Below are positions 10,237 to 18,132 of a DNA stretch of 21,466 nucleotides, one piece after another; positions within the stretch are counted from its first letter, which is position 1; each line of letters begins with the position of its first letter. The position numbers and the translations under genes were made by a program. Under the pieces are notes generated by a model. That model had not been told where the DNA came from. It made no database searches and worked only from the letters and a program-made list of their open reading frames with translations. This DNA comes from a virus. The DNA is taken from the IMG/VR virus record IMGVR_UViG_3300030012_002674, positions 297 through 21,762 of that record; one strand, given 5' to 3'.

Positions 10237-13200
10237 ATGCCAGAATTTATTCATAACTTTACTCGCGGTAAGATGGAAAGTGATCTTGACGAGAGAATGG
10301 TTCCTAATGGAAGTTACCGTGATGCGTTAAATGTAACAGTTTCTACATCCGAGGCTAGCAATGTTGGTGCTTTACAAAATTTAAAAGGTAATACAGAGAG
10401 AAAAGGTAAACCAAATTCTAATAGTGATTGGTCAAATAACTATATAAGTGATTTAACAAATGCTACTTGTATTGGTTCTATAAGACATGAGCCAACAGAA
10501 TGTATATATTGGTTTATAGCTAGCGAAGCAGATAGATCAAGTGGTTCTGTTAGTGTTATTGCTGAGTTTAATCAAAAAACAAACAAAGTAAGACCTGTAT
10601 TAGTTGATACTAAAAACATACTTAAGTTTACAAAAAATGATCATATTACGGGTATAAATATAGTTGAAAATTTATTATTTTTTACAGATAATAAAACAGA
10701 GCCAAAAAAAATAAATATAGAAAAGTTTAAAAAAGGATCTGTAAACTTTGTAACACACACTAAAGTATCTTCATATAACACGTCAACAGGTGAATACGGT
10801 TTACCACTTGGTTCTGATTTTGCAGAAGAAGACGTTACTGTTATTAAAAAATCTCCAATAACTCAACCGGTTCTAATAATGTCAGATTCTTTAGTAGATG
10901 GCCCTGGTACTGGTACCGATCCTGTTACTACAACTTATTCTGAAAACAATTACTATAATTTTACGTATATTACAGAAGAAGCAGTGGGTAATCAAGCTGC
11001 TGAATATGCTCCTTTACCAACATATCAAACATATCAAGAAGCTGTTGGTACCGCTCAAGCGTATCCAACTAATATGGAGTTTGTTAATATAGTAACATCT
11101 TCTGTACCAACTGGCTGGACTGTTGGTGAAACTATAGTATTAACTGGTAGTCATATAGATGATTATAACAATATAGATGAATATACTATAAGATTAGAAA
11201 TAGTATTTATTAATGGAGCTAATATAAAGTGTAAAATTCAATCAATACCTTCTCGTATATTAAGGTTTGGCGCGGATCAAGATGAATTAATAATTTGGGA
11301 TGTTTTGTTGCAAGAAAAAGATCCTATGTTTGAATTTAACTTTCCTAGATTTGCGTATAGATGGAAATATGAAAACGGTGAATATTCTACTTTTTCTCCA
11401 TTTACAAAACCTGCTTTTATTGGTGATGAGTTTGAATATTTATCATCAGATGGTTTTAATTTAGGTATGAAAAATAACTTAAGATCATTACAAATATCTG
11501 GTTTTGATTGGGGTAGCCCAGAGGTTATTGAATTAGATATATTATATAAATCAGCTACGGGTAATGCAATATATGTAGTAGACACATTAAAAGATAGAAA
11601 CACAACAAGTTTTACTTTAAAAAGCGAGTTGATTGGAGCTGTTGTTGAAGCTAATCAAATATTAAGACCATATGATAATGTGCCTAGAAAAGCGTTAGCT
11701 CAAGAAATTTCAGCTAATAGACTTATATATGCAAATTATTTACAAAATTATAATGTTCCAAGTGTAAATTTAAATTTAAATATTTTATCAGATACGCATC
11801 CTGGTTTGTTAGAAGATGGAGAAAATGATTTTAGAAAACCATTTAAAACTATAAAATCTATAAGAAAATATCAGTTAGGTATTGTTTTTCAAGACGCTTA
11901 TGGTAGACAAACACCTGTTTTTACAGATGCTAACGCAACAATAACATTAGATAAAGATACCGCAATTAAAATAAATAAGTTTTCTGCAAACGTAACAAGT
12001 TTGAGTAGCACGCCTGATTGGATAACTCATTACAAATATTTTATTAAAGACACATCAAATGAATATTACAACTTAGCTCTTGATAGATTTTATTTTGCTG
12101 AAGACGGTAATGTTTGGTTAAGTTTTCCTTCTTCAGAAAGAAACAAAGTTCAAATAGATAGTTATTTAATATTAAAGAAACAACACGATGTAGATACAGA
12201 CTCAATAGGTCCATGTAGATATAAAATACTTGATATACAAAGTAAAGCACCTGAGTTTATAGCTAATTCTAAAAAAATAATAGCGTCGGCTCAGTGTCAA
12301 GTTGTTAGTGGTTTTCAACAAAATTTTTCTTTAATAAACTTTACAGGTCCAAATGCAGATGATAATCAAAACTTTGCAACGGCTTTTAATGGTGATAGTT
12401 TTGTAACTATTTCTGATGGAGGTAATACAACAGATATATTAGGTGTTAAGTTTGGCGGACCAGTATCTAGTGGTGGAACTAATTATGAAGTGTCTTTAGA
12501 TGAACCTTTTGGTTCTGATGCATCTTTCTTTGGAGCTACTGGTTTAGCAAATGGAACCCAAGTAATAATAAACGTTTATAAAAATGAAGAAGAAAGATTA
12601 CCTGAGTTTGAAGGTAGATTTTTTGTAAAAATAAATAGAGATACTGATTTTGAATTAAACATAGTAAAAACATTTTCAGCTTTAGAAAAAAGATATGGAA
12701 TAGTAGCAAGTGTTGATGTTAAAGGTGTTAGTGCAAGCAGAAGTTCTAGAGGTGAATCAGGTAGATGGGGTTTGTTTTTTAGAGATGAAGGTGAATCTCA
12801 AAAAAATGATATTACAAGATGTAGTTGTCCAAGTAGCTGGAGACACTCGGGTATTACTACTGGAGGAAATGGAAATAGGTTAAATGGTTTCAACGGTGTA
12901 CCTGCTAATTCATTAGTTTTTATAGATGGAGAAACAGGTATGGAGCAGGCTTTTTATGCTGGAGCTGCTACTAACAGAACATATTTAGGTGTTTTAATGG
13001 CTGGTTTTGGTAACTTATCTAATTCACTGCAGTCTCGAGGTGCTAAAGACTTTATGTTGACAAAAGCTGTTAAAGGTGCTTTAGTTAGAGTTGTTCATAA
13101 TGATGGAAGAGTAACAGAGCCTTATGAAATAAAAAATCATTGGAGATACCAAGGTAGAAGAGGTATAAGAAAATGTGTATGTACAAAAGGTTGTAAAGAT

Positions 13201-15732
13201 TGTCAAAAAGGCTTAGATAGTAATAATGTTTTTTCTGTAGCATTAGAACTAGAAACACCAATACAGGAAGATTGGGTAGGTAATGGAACTTTGTCAGCGT
13301 TAGCAAATTTAAAAGGTTTTCAAATAGTAGAAGAAGTTGTTACTGATGACAATAAAATATTATCCTCTAATAACCCAGCAGTTTTTGAAACAGAACCTAA
13401 AGAAGCTATTGATATAGATCTATATTATGAAGCTTCAGATGCTTTTCCTATTTCAAACATAACACAAAGCTCTAAAACATTAGATTATTACAATGCTTAC
13501 TCATTTGGTAATGGTGTAGAATCAGATAGAATTAGGGACGATTTCAACGCTCCTAGAATAGGTAAAGGCGTAAAAGTTTCAGCTACATTAGATGAACCTT
13601 ACATGGAAGAAAGAAGATCAAACGGTCTTATATTTTCTCAAATATATAATTCTACATCTGGTATAAATAGATTAAATCAGTTTATACAGGCAGAACCAAT
13701 AACAAAAGACTTAAATCCAGAGTACGGTAGTATTCAAAAGTTGCATTCTAAGAACACTAATTTAGTTACACTATGTGAAGATAAGTGTTTAAGTATATTA
13801 GCTAATAAAGATGCTCTATTTAACGCAGACGGTAATGTTAATGTTACATCTAATAAAGCTGTATTAGGACAAGCAATTCCTTATGCGGGTGAATTTGGTA
13901 TTAGTACAAATCCTGAATCATTTGCTGATTATGGTTTTAGAAGTTATTTTGCTGATAAAAATAGAGGTACAGTTATAAGATTATCGCAAGATGGTATTAC
14001 ACAAATAGCATTAAAAGGTATGAGTGACTTTTTCTCTGATAATCTACCTGTGTGTACAAAAATTATTGGTAGTTATAATGACGATAAAGCTTGCTATAAT
14101 ATAACACTAGATAACTTAACAGAAGAGTGGCAAGATAAACTATCAGCAACACCTAAAGATAAAACAAATTGTGAAGTACCTGATGATATTTCTGACAATA
14201 TAAAATCAACAACAGTTTCGTTTAAAGAAACAGTAGACGGTTGGACTAGTAGAAAATCTTATTATTCAACAACAAACGGCGTTGTATTTCCTCTTGAAAG
14301 CGGCGTTTCATTAAATGATAAATATTATACATTTAACAAAGGTTTAATATGGGAGCACTCTTCAAACAACACTTATAGTAATTTTTATGGAACACAATAT
14401 GATTGTTCTGTTAATGTAATTATAAACGATGTTAATGAATCTATTAAAGGGTTTAAAACTTTAAATTATTCTGGTACAGCTTCAAGAGCCTATAAATACG
14501 GCACAAGTAGTGGTTTAAGTAATTTAACTATAGCTCAAATAGTAGATCAACAAATAGCTCCTAATATTATAAATAGTGAAACAAGTACACCGGGTTGGTA
14601 CACTAATTATATAAACACTGACATGGAGGAAGGTCATATAAAAGAGTTTGTTAAAAAAGAAAATAAATACTTTAATAAAATAAAAGGTTTAAAAACTTTT
14701 TATAATGATAATTGCGATAATAATGTTGATTCATCTGCTTTTCCAACTCAAGGTATAGGTGTTGCAACTATTAGTGGTGGTACTCCTACTAAATTTGATT
14801 TAATTATAAAACTAGATACAAGCTGTAGTACAGAAGGAAATGTTAATCCAGACACTACTAAAAAGTTTTGGTATTTATGGGCTTGTACAAAACCAGGTTC
14901 AAATGATCCAGGTATAGATATAAGAGATATAACTACAGATCAACTTGTAAAGTGTGGTATAGAGGAGTTTTATAACCAATTTCCAAACGGTTACAATGAA
15001 ATAAGTAAAAACTATTTAAATTATAAATTTTATAATTCACAAGGTGTAAACGTGGGTACTCAACTTTACAACGAAGATAATACTCAAGTAAGTTCTAGTG
15101 GCAAGTTTTTATATATAGACCCAGCATCAACACCTAGTAACGATGCTTTAAACGCGAATGTTTCTGGCACTAGTGTTCCTAATACTTATTTTATTATAAC
15201 TATTACAAATGGAACTATATCAGCTAAAACACAATATAACACTTTAGATGATTGCTCTCCTGCGCAACCTGGAGCTACTTTTAGAGCTCACTTAGGTTGG
15301 TTTAAAGTTATTCCTGGACAAGGTAATTATTTTATAAACTTTATAAATGCAACTAAAAATATTTCTAATCCAGGAAGTAGACCTGCTCATTTAAAAAGCG
15401 CGATTATAAGCTGGCTTAATTCTAATTCTATTGTAAATCAAAACAATTTAGGTATATATGCTTTTAATTATAGTTATTTAGCTGGTAATGGAGTTGCTGT
15501 TGGTGAAACTCTTTACAAAGAAGATGGAACAACTTTAGACTCAAATTTTAATACAGGAGCTTTTGTATACAGAACTGATCAAGTTTTTAACGGAGCGTCA
15601 ACAACTGGCTTTTCTGTGAACAGATACGATGTTGATAATAGTGATGATTGGGCCTCTTTACCAGATACTTATAAAATAATAGTCTTACAAAACGGAACAA
15701 TAACCCACGTAATAAACATGAATTCATTATAA
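10237..15732 (+). CDS. Giant tail nozzle (muzzle/stabilisation) protein
   Basis: 1831 residues. The start FTRGKMESDLDERMVPNG, continuing YRDALNVTVSTSEASNVGAL, is the hallmark of the large stabilisation or muzzle proteins of crAss-like phages. By analogy with T7 gp12 and P22 gp10, it should form the tube end that retains packaged DNA and touches the host surface. Most of it is beta-rich with repeated short strands, compatible with propeller-type folds. Cys residues cluster at 862/864 (CSC) and 980/982/986/989 (CVCTKGCKDC), an arrangement suggestive of metal binding. Residues ~1595-1671 and ~1739-1828 contain two copies of a domain, so the C-terminal third may be a host-facing extension. It starts three bases after the previous stop and overlaps the next ATG by one base (TAATG). 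Alternative: a tail spike or combined nozzle/adhesin. Confidence 0.85.
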   Translation: MPEFIHNFTRGKMESDLDERMVPNGSYRDALNVTVSTSEASNVGALQNLKGNTERKGKPNSNSDWSNNYISDLTNATCIGSIRHEPTECIYWFIASEADRSSGSVSVIAEFNQKTNKVRPVLVDTKNILKFTKNDHITGINIVENLLFFTDNKTEPKKINIEKFKKGSVNFVTHTKVSSYNTSTGEYGLPLGSDFAEEDVTVIKKSPITQPVLIMSDSLVDGPGTGTDPVTTTYSENNYYNFTYITEEAVGNQAAEYAPLPTYQTYQEAVGTAQAYPTNMEFVNIVTSSVPTGWTVGETIVLTGSHIDDYNNIDEYTIRLEIVFINGANIKCKIQSIPSRILRFGADQDELIIWDVLLQEKDPMFEFNFPRFAYRWKYENGEYSTFSPFTKPAFIGDEFEYLSSDGFNLGMKNNLRSLQISGFDWGSPEVIELDILYKSATGNAIYVVDTLKDRNTTSFTLKSELIGAVVEANQILRPYDNVPRKALAQEISANRLIYANYLQNYNVPSVNLNLNILSDTHPGLLEDGENDFRKPFKTIKSIRKYQLGIVFQDAYGRQTPVFTDANATITLDKDTAIKINKFSANVTSLSSTPDWITHYKYFIKDTSNEYYNLALDRFYFAEDGNVWLSFPSSERNKVQIDSYLILKKQHDVDTDSIGPCRYKILDIQSKAPEFIANSKKIIASAQCQVVSGFQQNFSLINFTGPNADDNQNFATAFNGDSFVTISDGGNTTDILGVKFGGPVSSGGTNYEVSLDEPFGSDASFFGATGLANGTQVIINVYKNEEERLPEFEGRFFVKINRDTDFELNIVKTFSALEKRYGIVASVDVKGVSASRSSRGESGRWGLFFRDEGESQKNDITRCSCPSSWRHSGITTGGNGNRLNGFNGVPANSLVFIDGETGMEQAFYAGAATNRTYLGVLMAGFGNLSNSLQSRGAKDFMLTKAVKGALVRVVHNDGRVTEPYEIKNHWRYQGRRGIRKCVCTKGCKDCQKGLDSNNVFSVALELETPIQEDWVGNGTLSALANLKGFQIVEEVVTDDNKILSSNNPAVFETEPKEAIDIDLYYEASDAFPISNITQSSKTLDYYNAYSFGNGVESDRIRDDFNAPRIGKGVKVSATLDEPYMEERRSNGLIFSQIYNSTSGINRLNQFIQAEPITKDLNPEYGSIQKLHSKNTNLVTLCEDKCLSILANKDALFNADGNVNVTSNKAVLGQAIPYAGEFGISTNPESFADYGFRSYFADKNRGTVIRLSQDGITQIALKGMSDFFSDNLPVCTKIIGSYNDDKACYNITLDNLTEEWQDKLSATPKDKTNCEVPDDISDNIKSTTVSFKETVDGWTSRKSYYSTTNGVVFPLESGVSLNDKYYTFNKGLIWEHSSNNTYSNFYGTQYDCSVNVIINDVNESIKGFKTLNYSGTASRAYKYGTSSGLSNLTIAQIVDQQIAPNIINSETSTPGWYTNYINTDMEEGHIKEFVKKENKYFNKIKGLKTFYNDNCDNNVDSSAFPTQGIGVATISGGTPTKFDLIIKLDTSCSTEGNVNPDTTKKFWYLWACTKPGSNDPGIDIRDITTDQLVKCGIEEFYNQFPNGYNEISKNYLNYKFYNSQGVNVGTQLYNEDNTQVSSSGKFLYIDPASTPSNDALNANVSGTSVPNTYFIITITNGTISAKTQYNTLDDCSPAQPGATFRAHLGWFKVIPGQGNYFINFINATKNISNPGSRPAHLKSAIISWLNSNSIVNQNNLGIYAFNYSYLAGNGVAVGETLYKEDGTTLDSNFNTGAFVYRTDQVFNGASTTGFSVNRYDVDNSDDWASLPDTYKIIVLQNGTITHVINMNSL
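15019..15720 (+). repeat. Duplicated C-terminal domain in the nozzle protein
   Basis: Two diverged protein-level copies. Copy 1 is about residues 1595-1671 (15019-15249); copy 2 is about 1739-1828 (15451-15720). Shared features in order: an aromatic strand (NYKFYNS / YAFNYSY), GV-VG, the core LYNEDNTQ / LYKEDGTT, a G-F-Y strand (GKFLYID / GAFVYRT), a variable loop, then TYFIITITNGTI / TYKIIVLQNGTI. The order is identical in both copies. Nucleotide identity looks low, so the duplication is old. The location at the tail tip suggests receptor-contact modules, but that is inference. Confidence 0.7.
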
Positions 15733-17768
15733 TGGCTACACAAACATTTGATAACTACACAATAACAGACGTAACATATCAAGTTACAGGAGGAACTAAT
15801 GTGTATTCAGCACATCAAACAGCTGTGTTAACAATATCACCTAATGATGGTTATACTGTAGATGCTGGTGATTTTAGCTGGATAAACACTAGTTTAGCAA
15901 ATGTAAACACGGTTGTTTTTACGCAAAGTGGAACTAATGTTTTAGTTACAGTAACATTTGATAATCCATTTACAATGCCTAGCTCAGATACAACTTTGGG
16001 TTTGTGTATTGCTGGGGCAGCTATTAGAAGTTATATAGGACTAACTGGCCAATATAAGGTGGCTGGTGACGATACTAATATGAGTATAGTTGATGACTCG
16101 CCTGTTGGTGATTTAGTTTATTTTGATATTAATGGTGAGGAAAATCAAGAGGTTTTGTTAATAAGTAAAACATATACAGCTTCGAGTGGTTATGCTTTTG
16201 AAACAGATTTTGAAGTTGTTTTAAATGTTGAAAATCCTAATAGTTATAATGTTATATACACAAAAACGTTAGATGATTCTAACAATTTAACAAGTATAAA
16301 TATTAAAATTTATTACACTTTTCCAAGTAGCACTGTTGTTGATGATAGGCTTGATTTAGTTATACCAGATAGATTTTTAATATATGTTCCTGAAAACAAA
16401 GTAAGAGCTTATAGTTTTTTACAAGGTAATTCAATTGTTGGGCCAAGTGGATGTGTTAAAACTGTTAGATTTTATGGAAACCCAACAGCTACGTTTACTT
16501 TAGCCACATCTAATGGTTCTATATTAGATGTTGGTGAAATTACTACAGATGGACAAGATGATACTGTTTTTTACGCAACAACACCTACATTAACTATACC
16601 AGATAGTGGTTACTACGATATAAACATATATATACCAGCTTCAAATTCTGCTACTACATATACTTTTACTTTAGCTGGTGATTTAGTAAGTCCTTTTCCA
16701 CAAGCTAATCCATTTACTATATTGCAAAAACCAGACACAACACTTACATTTTCTGCTTCTGGCACTGGCTTTACTGTTAGTAATGTTTCACCAAGCAGCA
16801 CTAGTTATACAAAAACATTTACAGCAAACAGTGAACCAACTGAAGGTTCTACAGCTTATGATAATAGTTATTTATTTAACGTAACAGCAACCAATGGTAA
16901 TCAAATAACTGTTGATGACACAACAACTGATACGTTTGGAACTTGGTCTAATTTAAAAGACGTTGATCAACAAACAACTAGCGCTATTTCAAATACATTG
17001 GTTATACCTGTTAACGATTCTACTGGTATAACAACAGGTATGAGGTTTATATCTCCACTTGTAACTTCAAGTAGTGTATATACAGTAGACAGTATAAACG
17101 GAAACAATATAACTTTAACTGGTGGCGCAAATCTTACTCTACCTAATTTTTCAAATATTAGTTTTAGCAATAGATCTGGTTCCGAATTACAATTACCTAT
17201 AACAGCTACTGTAGACGACGCTGGTACTTCTGCTCAAGTTAAAGGTGTTGGTGTTATATCAAGATACGGTGATGAAAATAAAACATTTAATCTTGATTTA
17301 GCTACAGTGTTCACAATTGGTAGTAGTAATCCTTGTAAACAGTTTAATGTTACTGTCGGAACAGGTGGTGGTTTATTATCTTATTATGACTGTATAACAA
17401 ATAATAAAAGAGAATTAACTGTGTTTAAAGGGCAGGCTAACTTTAATATATGTGCGTTAGCTAGTCCAGCACCTACAGTTACAGGAACTATGTCTATAGC
17501 CGCTCATGGTAGCAACACGTGTGCTGCTGGTGGAGCTAGTAATCAAGGTACTTGTACTACTTGGACAATAGTTTATAACCCAGCTGCGCCTAGAGGTAAA
17601 TCAGTTACCGTAACGTATATAGACTGTGTAACGCTAGCTGAAGCAACTATAACTGTAGGATTAGGTTCTACAGTAACACAATGCGCTACAAGACAAACGC
17701 CAGTGAGTTCTGATCCAGGCGATGGTGGTGCAACAATAACATTAACCGATTTAACATGTTCACCTTAA
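15732..17768 (+). CDS. Beta-rich, repeat-bearing tail fibre or adhesin
   Basis: 678 residues of Thr/Ser/Asn/Val-rich beta sequence with few Lys or Arg, translationally coupled to the nozzle gene through a TAATG overlap. Residues ~33-92 and ~143-210 look like two related Ig-like domains. A middle part (~240-530) has several short beta motifs, including VRFYGNPTATFTLA and TLTIPDSGYYDINIYIP. The last ~145 residues contain two copies of a Cys-based repeat: Cys 535, 554, 574 and Cys 608, 632, 651, each with a central DC and a final CA. Such C...DC...CA modules recur in tail proteins of Bacteroidota phages. There is no signal peptide, as expected for a virion part. Host recognition is the likely job, inferred from position and architecture; the protein family itself is not recognised with certainty. 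Confidence 0.72.
   Translation: MATQTFDNYTITDVTYQVTGGTNVYSAHQTAVLTISPNDGYTVDAGDFSWINTSLANVNTVVFTQSGTNVLVTVTFDNPFTMPSSDTTLGLCIAGAAIRSYIGLTGQYKVAGDDTNMSIVDDSPVGDLVYFDINGEENQEVLLISKTYTASSGYAFETDFEVVLNVENPNSYNVIYTKTLDDSNNLTSINIKIYYTFPSSTVVDDRLDLVIPDRFLIYVPENKVRAYSFLQGNSIVGPSGCVKTVRFYGNPTATFTLATSNGSILDVGEITTDGQDDTVFYATTPTLTIPDSGYYDINIYIPASNSATTYTFTLAGDLVSPFPQANPFTILQKPDTTLTFSASGTGFTVSNVSPSSTSYTKTFTANSEPTEGSTAYDNSYLFNVTATNGNQITVDDTTTDTFGTWSNLKDVDQQTTSAISNTLVIPVNDSTGITTGMRFISPLVTSSSVYTVDSINGNNITLTGGANLTLPNFSNISFSNRSGSELQLPITATVDDAGTSAQVKGVGVISRYGDENKTFNLDLATVFTIGSSNPCKQFNVTVGTGGGLLSYYDCITNNKRELTVFKGQANFNICALASPAPTVTGTMSIAAHGSNTCAAGGASNQGTCTTWTIVYNPAAPRGKSVTVTYIDCVTLAEATITVGLGSTVTQCATRQTPVSSDPGDGGATITLTDLTCSP
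15828..16361 (+). repeat. Two tandem Ig-like domains in the fibre
   Basis: Residues ~33-92 and ~143-210 align in order: a strand into GY (NDGYTVDAGDFSW / SSGYAFETDFEVV), a loop, then VVFTQ / VIYTK, a variable turn, VLVTVTF / INIKIYYTF, then PSSDTTLGLCI / PSSTVVDDRLDLVI. Similarity is at protein level and moderate. The spacing and the shared aromatic-then-PSS pattern argue for duplication of one beta-sandwich domain. Confidence 0.55.
17334..17711 (+). repeat. Tandem C...DC...CA repeat at the fibre C-terminus
   Basis: Copy 1 (residues 535-581): CKQFNVTV, YYDCITNNK, a strand, then ICALASPAPTV. Copy 2 (608-660): CTTWTIVY, YIDCVTLAE, ATITVGLG, then QCATRQTPVSS. Spacing is 19 and 20 residues between Cys in copy 1, and 24 and 19 in copy 2. 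Extra Cys at 597 (between the copies) and 676 (end) may pair with these. The odd number of Cys per copy suggests pairing between copies, or metal or free thiols. Confidence 0.7.
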
Positions 17769-17769
17769 T

Positions 17770-18132
17770 ATGGAAACACAAGCAATAACATTAACATTCG
17801 CATATTTATTAAATGTATCTTTACAGGTAGGTGACACACTTTATTATTTAGCTGCAAATGACGAGATAGTTCAAATAGGTGAGGTTACTAGTATAACTAT
17901 AAGATATGCTGATCCAGCATCAGGTGTTACAGCTCAAACAGTTGTAGTAGCACAAATACCTGTAAACGTGACTCCTCCTACTAACTCAAGTTATATATTT
18001 TTTACAAAAGACGCGCAGGGTAATACATCAAACTTAAAGGGTTATTACGCTGAAGCGCAGTTTAGAAACAACGATACAAAAGAGTGTGAGCTATTTTCTG
18101 TAGGTTCAGAAATATTTGAAAGTAGCAAATAA
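17770..18132 (+). CDS. Small conserved tail-associated protein (120 aa)
   Basis: Follows the fibre stop by a single base. It begins with beta strands (ITLTFAYLLNVSLQVGDTLYYLA) and a turn DEIVQIGEVTSI, and closes with the conserved block NLKGYYAEAQFRNNDTKECE (88-107) followed by LFSVGSEIFESSK (108-120). I recognise this C-terminal block from small proteins beside tail fibre genes of marine phages, including cyanophage-like and flavobacterial ones. The function has not been established to my knowledge; a fibre cap, fibre chaperone or tail-tip structural protein are the candidates. No signal peptide or membrane segment is seen. A 33-base A/T-rich gap follows, the longest in this part of the gene chain. 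Confidence 0.78.
   Translation: METQAITLTFAYLLNVSLQVGDTLYYLAANDEIVQIGEVTSITIRYADPASGVTAQTVVVAQIPVNVTPPTNSSYIFFTKDAQGNTSNLKGYYAEAQFRNNDTKECELFSVGSEIFESSK

Follow-up and report, generated by a model that had tools for sequence, protein, structure and literature searches.

Two four-cysteine units end an adhesin-like protein encoded within the split muzzle gene of a crAss-like phage

In a 21,466-nucleotide stretch of crAss-like phage DNA (the window), a gene for a 678-aa adhesin-like protein sits inside a split muzzle gene, between the muzzle body and its detached C-terminal domain. We think it somewhat probable that the distal end of this protein consists of tandem four-Cys beta domains with disulfides inside each copy, and that the protein is a tail-tip adhesin with an exchangeable tip. 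The adhesin is probably carried by a crAss-like podovirus whose likely host is a flavobacterium. Exchangeable phage adhesins are already known; what appears new is the four-Cys unit and a muzzle gene interrupted by an adhesin gene. A search of the open-access literature (titles and beginnings of abstracts) returned no split muzzle gene and no such Cys module. Taken apart from its locus, the Cys module would be of modest weight. For uncultured relatives, a gate gene split around an exchangeable adhesin marks a defined place to seek host-range determinants, and the four-Cys unit, being compact, lends itself to expression and testing.

The muzzle gene is split around an adhesin-like gene

The features of the locus, all on the + strand, are as follows.

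10237..15732, +, muzzle (tail-tip gate) protein without its C-terminal domain, 1831 aa (PF25729, phrog_14478, tblastn)
14368..14682, +, crAss_MUZ_C domain, muzzle residues 1378-1482 (Pfam match)
14683..15729, +, muzzle body, C-terminal extension containing an internal repeat (blastp of its two halves)
15732..17768, +, inserted adhesin-like gene, 678 aa (ORF; orthologues at the same place)
15732..16031, +, conserved N-terminal domain, putative docking domain (profile in 56/64 inserts; alignment A8)
16032..17318, +, variable middle with predicted beta strands (pairwise identity; predicted strands)
17319..17525, +, Cys unit A: C535, C554, C574, C597 (sequence, orthologues, structure prediction)
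17538..17765, +, Cys unit B: C608, C632, C651, C676 (sequence, orthologues, structure prediction, shuffles)
17770..18132, +, 120-aa ORF, predicted detached C-terminal domain of the muzzle (L028, phi38:1 and phrog_18548 matches)

The upstream gene matches phrog_14478 with E=2.5e-120. Its match to PF25729 (crAss_MUZ_C; 25.3 bits, E=2.1e-5) lies slightly under the cut-off of 27 bits, and the same family scores 37.6 bits in the related locus L028 and 67.9 bits in phi38:1. The 120-aa ORF aligns with the C terminus of the one-piece muzzle of L028 (37/112 identical, E=6e-20) and with that of phi38:1 (E=8e-8), and gave no match to the next separate ORFs of phi38:1 and elemo. The family phrog_18548 falls on a single protein in the muzzles of L028, phi38:1, elemo, and Gundel, and on two proteins in the window. 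As judged from these alignments, the ORF is the C-terminal domain of the muzzle, split off. Both features of a Crassvirales muzzle locus are thus present, a muzzle protein with a MUZ_C domain and the C-terminal domain, though the latter is a separate ORF. After MUZ_C, the muzzle body extends for about 350 aa, in which two repeat copies (15016-15240 and 15463-15723) are identical at 30/87 positions (E=5e-8, blastp).

The closest known counterpart is the crAss001 muzzle gp44 (PF25729 crAss_MUZ_C, PF25731 crAss_MUZ); the upstream gene is a muzzle homologue, and the downstream ORF matches the C-terminal segment of one-piece muzzles. The window differs in having that segment as a separate ORF with an adhesin gene in between. 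As far as the accessible text goes, the published account of crAss001 describes insertions within the muzzle protein and no split gene (PMC10172136). At 15728-15734, the stop codon of the muzzle and the start codon of the adhesin share the letters TAATG, an overlap suggestive of coupled translation. We set aside a programmed frameshift between the two genes because the junction differs between loci, being this overlap in the window and a 32-base gap in L014.

The 678-aa protein matches no family in Pfam (E<=1) or PHROGs (E<=0.1). Among 15 homologues, the best single-member Pfam matches were DUF2963 (0.0052), AbrB_C (0.037), and aBig_2 (0.095), and the first 529 aa gave one weak match (E=0.2) in 50,697 phage records (tblastn). 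Its Cys residues are at positions 92, 241, 535, 554, 574, 597, 608, 632, 651, and 676, so that 8/10 are crowded into the final 144 residues of the protein (p = 1.1e-4, hypergeometric).

The protein ends in two units of four cysteines

The first-pass annotation had described two compact modules of three Cys each at the end of a fiber, with C597 and C676 as extras. Two copies do end this adhesin at its C terminus, but each has four Cys, C597 and C676 being the last residues of the two sets. The interval it had assigned, 17334-17711, encodes residues 535-660; the element itself extends to the gene end, at 17765. The Cys spacings are 19/20/23 in unit A and 24/19/25 in unit B. When a profile of A units is run on unit B of the window, the score is 19.0 bits, a value reached by 0/1000 full shuffles and 0/1000 shuffles with fixed Cys, and the A and B profiles compared with each other give E = 1.3e-4 (probability 54%). 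In L005, L011, and L054, unit B scores no better than its own shuffles, so the copy relation rests on the family and not on each pair. The Asp of the motif Y[YI]DC, which had been read as conserved, is replaced by Asn in unit B of L005, L006, L011, L012, and L013 and by Ala in unit A of L054. Values of dN/dS on the units, 0.08-0.45 in three pairs, indicate purifying selection.

All eight Cys are kept in 11/11 tabulated module-bearing orthologues, some of which are near-copies, and the two units are adjacent in every one. This adjacency and the even number of Cys would suit an earlier suggestion that the Cys pair across the two units to form one locked tandem. However, single-unit relatives have exactly four tip Cys at nearly the same spacings (20/19/23 and 21/20/25), and we regard pairing across units as quite improbable. 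L109, L086, and L117 have one unit each, with exactly four tip Cys on reading (profile E = 0.12-0.34). In L078, C1 and C2 are both replaced, C3 and C4 are kept, and there is one extra Cys; this joint loss is one sequence, L144 and L165 being the same contig. Scans for more loci like L084 and L078 yielded 4 and 10 loci; apart from L163 and L164, which are identical to L084, these were close copies or known contigs; hence no further independent Cys loss was found. The joint loss of C1 and C2, together with the four-Cys single-unit relatives, favors two predicted disulfides within each unit rather than across units.

Four Cys per unit could also ligate Zn or Fe-S, in which case the Cys would bind a metal or cofactor instead of forming disulfides. 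Within a unit, the Cys are 19-28 residues apart and there is no CxxC, a wide spacing that is unusual for Zn or Fe-S sites. The loss of C1 and C2 as a pair in L078 while C3 and C4 stay also speaks against such a site, and we consider it the least probable of the readings discussed here.

Predicted structure of the tip

Prediction of the whole 678-aa protein from 15 sequences gave a string of beta domains (mean pLDDT 78.8). Its pTM is 0.42, so the arrangement of the domains is not given by the model. The tandem module alone, predicted from 11 sequences (mean pLDDT 85.8, pTM 0.76), forms two small five-strand beta domains, with strands at 6-12, 18-24, 30-35, 42-47, and 59-62 in unit A and at 80-86, 95-101, 108-114, 117-123, and 139-144 in unit B. 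The predicted strand order is the same in both copies. The Cys occupy like places in the two units: C1 opens strand 1, C2 directly follows strand 2, C3 lies within strand 4, and C4 comes after strand 5. Given these positions of C1 and C2, a C1-C2 bond across the first hairpin is plausible from the modeled strand order, and the C3-C4 pairing would follow by exclusion.

Fold searches with the module gave no BFVD match at E<=0.001 (Foldseek). Local BFVD matches of probability 0.9-1.0 were found to several unnamed phage proteins, such as A0A6J5M7Y7 (71 columns, rmsd 1.8, 22% identity), and a wider spread of the module is therefore possible. The whole protein gave low TM-scores over many-domain proteins in BFVD. 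Among solved structures, no profile match was confident (best E 0.33), and Foldseek against the PDB gave no confident match (best E 0.5), which does not show a new fold. In VIA-align, the top row was a Bacillus cereus protein, the ring subunit Ena1C (9t3p), matched over unit B with Z 4.3 (64 residues, rmsd 3.0) and tied with the unrelated human SIDT1 (Z 4.2); Z values under 8 may reflect no more than a common beta arrangement. The PDB searches gave nothing convincing, and we claim no relation of the module to Ena proteins, lectins, or cadherins.

The unit is found in one gene family of crAss-like viruses

An alignment scan of virus contigs with A units returned 12 loci, all on contigs already known to carry orthologues. 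Of 21 records of relatives, 12 showed precisely two matches, located in one and the same gene, and 9 had none, including phi38:1, elemo, and Gundel. In a set of 16 records, 10 had matches, only in the adhesin-like gene. The ORFs of the best 80 of 587 muzzle relatives added L054 with two units (profile E = 1.7e-8) and L084 and L098 with one (E = 8e-7), and two further scans that started from module-bearing proteins gave relatives of the same kind. Counted in this way, the related fibers that bear the module carry two units or a single unit per gene. The four-Cys unit matches no Pfam family and gave only single weak matches in PHROGs (best E 0.068), and the tandem modules of the window and L023 gave only noise in the 50,697 phage records (tblastn).

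In 792 Bacteroidota genomes, the module was not found by profile. At E<=0.01, profile A7 matched in 2/397 genomes of Flavobacteriaceae (the family of the Aquimarina genome G019) and in 3/395 Bacteroidota genomes, which is about chance level. When read out, these bacterial matches were partial, some with stops, or were repeats of the leucine-rich type; five further genomes gave 0 matches at E<=0.01. A general Bacteroidota domain is thus rejected at the present sensitivity. The module had at first been associated with tail proteins of Bacteroidota phages. The crAss muzzle and the flavobacterial phage neighbors support a Bacteroidota phage, but at the sequence level the module is not general in such tail proteins. 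A profile search, proposed at the same time, retrieves the adhesin genes of relatives and nothing outside the crAss-like family of adhesin-like genes, where by profile the unit appears only at the C terminus.

Split muzzle loci carry different tips

The census comprises 91 non-redundant loci with the 3' part of the muzzle, after removal of 33 duplicates and 10 loci without that part. The sample is biased in favor of near relatives of the query. An insert interrupts the gene in 64 loci; 2 loci are split without insert and 6 are fused, giving 72 readable junctions. The other 19 are unresolved, mostly by contig ends; Gundel (L004) is one of these by profile, and is fused by PHROG. The conserved N-terminal domain is present in 56/64 inserts (profile, E<=0.01) and the Cys unit in 17/64, several of these being near-identical copies. 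In the five fused-muzzle records searched (phi38:1, elemo, Gundel, L028, and L122, two of them fragments), the N-terminal domain is absent.

A tree of the conserved part of the muzzle was built from 71 rows, namely, the 66 split loci minus the near-copies L139 and L142, plus 7 fused loci including L004. Fused loci fall mostly outside the split ones, on long branches of unsure placement. The one-piece muzzles of L028 and L122 are nested among the split ones, possibly by re-fusion or as a misplaced branch. The double-unit loci form one clade of 11 (SH-aLRT 99), the single-unit loci and L078 a clade of 5 (SH-aLRT 100), and other tips lie elsewhere. In a clade of three (support 100), L081 has a WW.Y tip that L079 and L125 lack.

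The inserts end, at one and the same place, in tips of several kinds: a double or single Cys unit, WW.Y..DY or LRLCCPD.NC, cadherin-like, or Big_9. The other Cys tip, WW.Y..DY or LRLCCPD.NC, was found in 15 loci, duplicates included. Among 20 chosen inserted ORFs, Pfam assigned cadherin-like or Big_9 domains to 9 and DUF285 repeats to 1, and nothing to 10 (E<=0.01). The cadherin-like and Big_9 domains support a putative adhesive role for the inserts.

Within the adhesin-like gene, mean pairwise identity is 63% over residues 1-111, about 38% over residues 335-490, and, within the clade, 53% and 63% in units A and B. Compared with L020, the window's protein is 86-90% identical in the modules but only 27-42% over residues 112-490; synonymous divergence (pS) is 0.26-0.37 inside the modules and 0.52-0.63 outside them. 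This combination of high module identity and lower pS shows, on the sequence comparison, an apparent recombination that kept the module block and replaced the rest of the gene.

The same data raise a serious rival to our reading, in which the tandem Cys units serve as a structural cap or in oligomerization and receptor binding falls to the variable middle (residues 112-490). A tip that binds a receptor is often the most variable part, and the modules are better conserved than the middle of the adhesin, so they may be structural. Their conservation within the clade is the main evidence against the tip as a fast-changing receptor-binding surface, and the apparent recombination seen against L020 kept this block. 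On the other side, wholly different tips occupy this position in other lineages, and the genes of L024 and L059 stop short of it, so the module is not needed for such a protein as such. We consider a purely structural role rather unlikely.

A possible role at the muzzle gate

According to the tail-tip adhesin reading, the N-terminal domain would dock at the muzzle and the beta domains of the middle would hold the tip away from the particle, the two clamped Cys units forming a stiff end that meets the cell surface. Disulfides would most likely form after the particle leaves the reducing cytoplasm of the host, with C1-C2 closing the first hairpin and C3-C4 linking the strand with the CA motif to the segment after the last strand. 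The tip would hold a surface ligand before the muzzle gate opens, and its contact would be passed to the muzzle, opening the gate. Here we infer the oxidation and pairing of the Cys, the docking through the N-terminal domain, and the role of the tip in holding a ligand, and with them the ligand, redox state, and virion position of the adhesin. In crAss001, the tail is stabilized by disulfides, and the function proposed for a muzzle tip domain is to contact the cell and open the gate (PMC10172136). Docking of crAss-like phages and the resulting opening of the muzzle are presented as a proposal or as unknown in the available text of the published accounts (PMC10172136, PMC10136315). More tentatively, and as a conceivable rather than an expected generalization, the cut gate gene could be, in most sampled environmental crAss-like phages, a genomic dock for exchangeable adhesins that share an N-terminal plug; such an adhesin would then be built into the muzzle, and ligand binding by the Cys tip would be coupled directly to gate opening.

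Two known kinds of adhesin are worth comparing. The tail fiber proteins of crAss001 (gp22 and partners) resemble the 678-aa protein in their proposed role, receptor recognition having been suggested for Crassvirales fibers (PMC10136315). They dock on the collar hub THA/THB (PMC10172136), whereas the 678-aa gene lies inside the muzzle locus. Tentaclins, the Ig-domain receptor-binding proteins of phages, are likewise chains of beta domains; their defining features are a C-type lectin domain at the N terminus and an anchor motif at the C terminus (PMC10743442). The window's adhesin, by contrast, is conserved in its N-terminal domain and exchangeable in its C-terminal part.

Genomic context, probable host, and other observations

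The source of the window is a virus record of the IMG/VR kind, a fragment of 21,762 bases. Its gene order is terminase-like (a presumed identity), portal, acidic protein, capsid, further head and tail genes, muzzle, the 678-aa gene, and further genes. The muzzle ORF matches 87 phage records (tblastn), 86 of which are by name phages of Flavobacterium, Cellulophaga, Tenacibaculum, or Maribacter, and the nearest isolates to the muzzle infect these same genera (tblastn, structural proteins). Together with the muzzle profile matches, this identifies the phage as crAss-like, a label resting on the muzzle and other structural genes, with a flavobacterium as the probable host. A promoter scan gave no signal above shuffles, and four terminator-like sites were found against 1.0 expected, one of the four on the coding strand.

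Several related loci show further arrangements. L074 and L106 have a separate muzzle C-terminal ORF with no adhesin between (gaps of 11 and 9 bases), and the unusual length of their muzzles (1995 and 2212 aa) looks as though an adhesin had been fused on. The insert of L031 (about 13500-13760) is read in two frames (87 and 608 aa), so it is broken or mis-assembled. In L067, a 399-aa insert (12294-13490) with seven DUF285 stretches (E=6e-235) adjoins an adhesin with the N-terminal domain within the split muzzle. The inserts of L075, L079, L120, and L123, from several lineages, have a further Cys-rich tip, C..C...L.LCY....D.CC. Finally, the muzzle relatives L134 and L135 are part of Aquimarina genomes, on scaffolds as long as 168,714 and 837,170 bp, respectively, suggesting that they belong to integrated crAss-like prophages.
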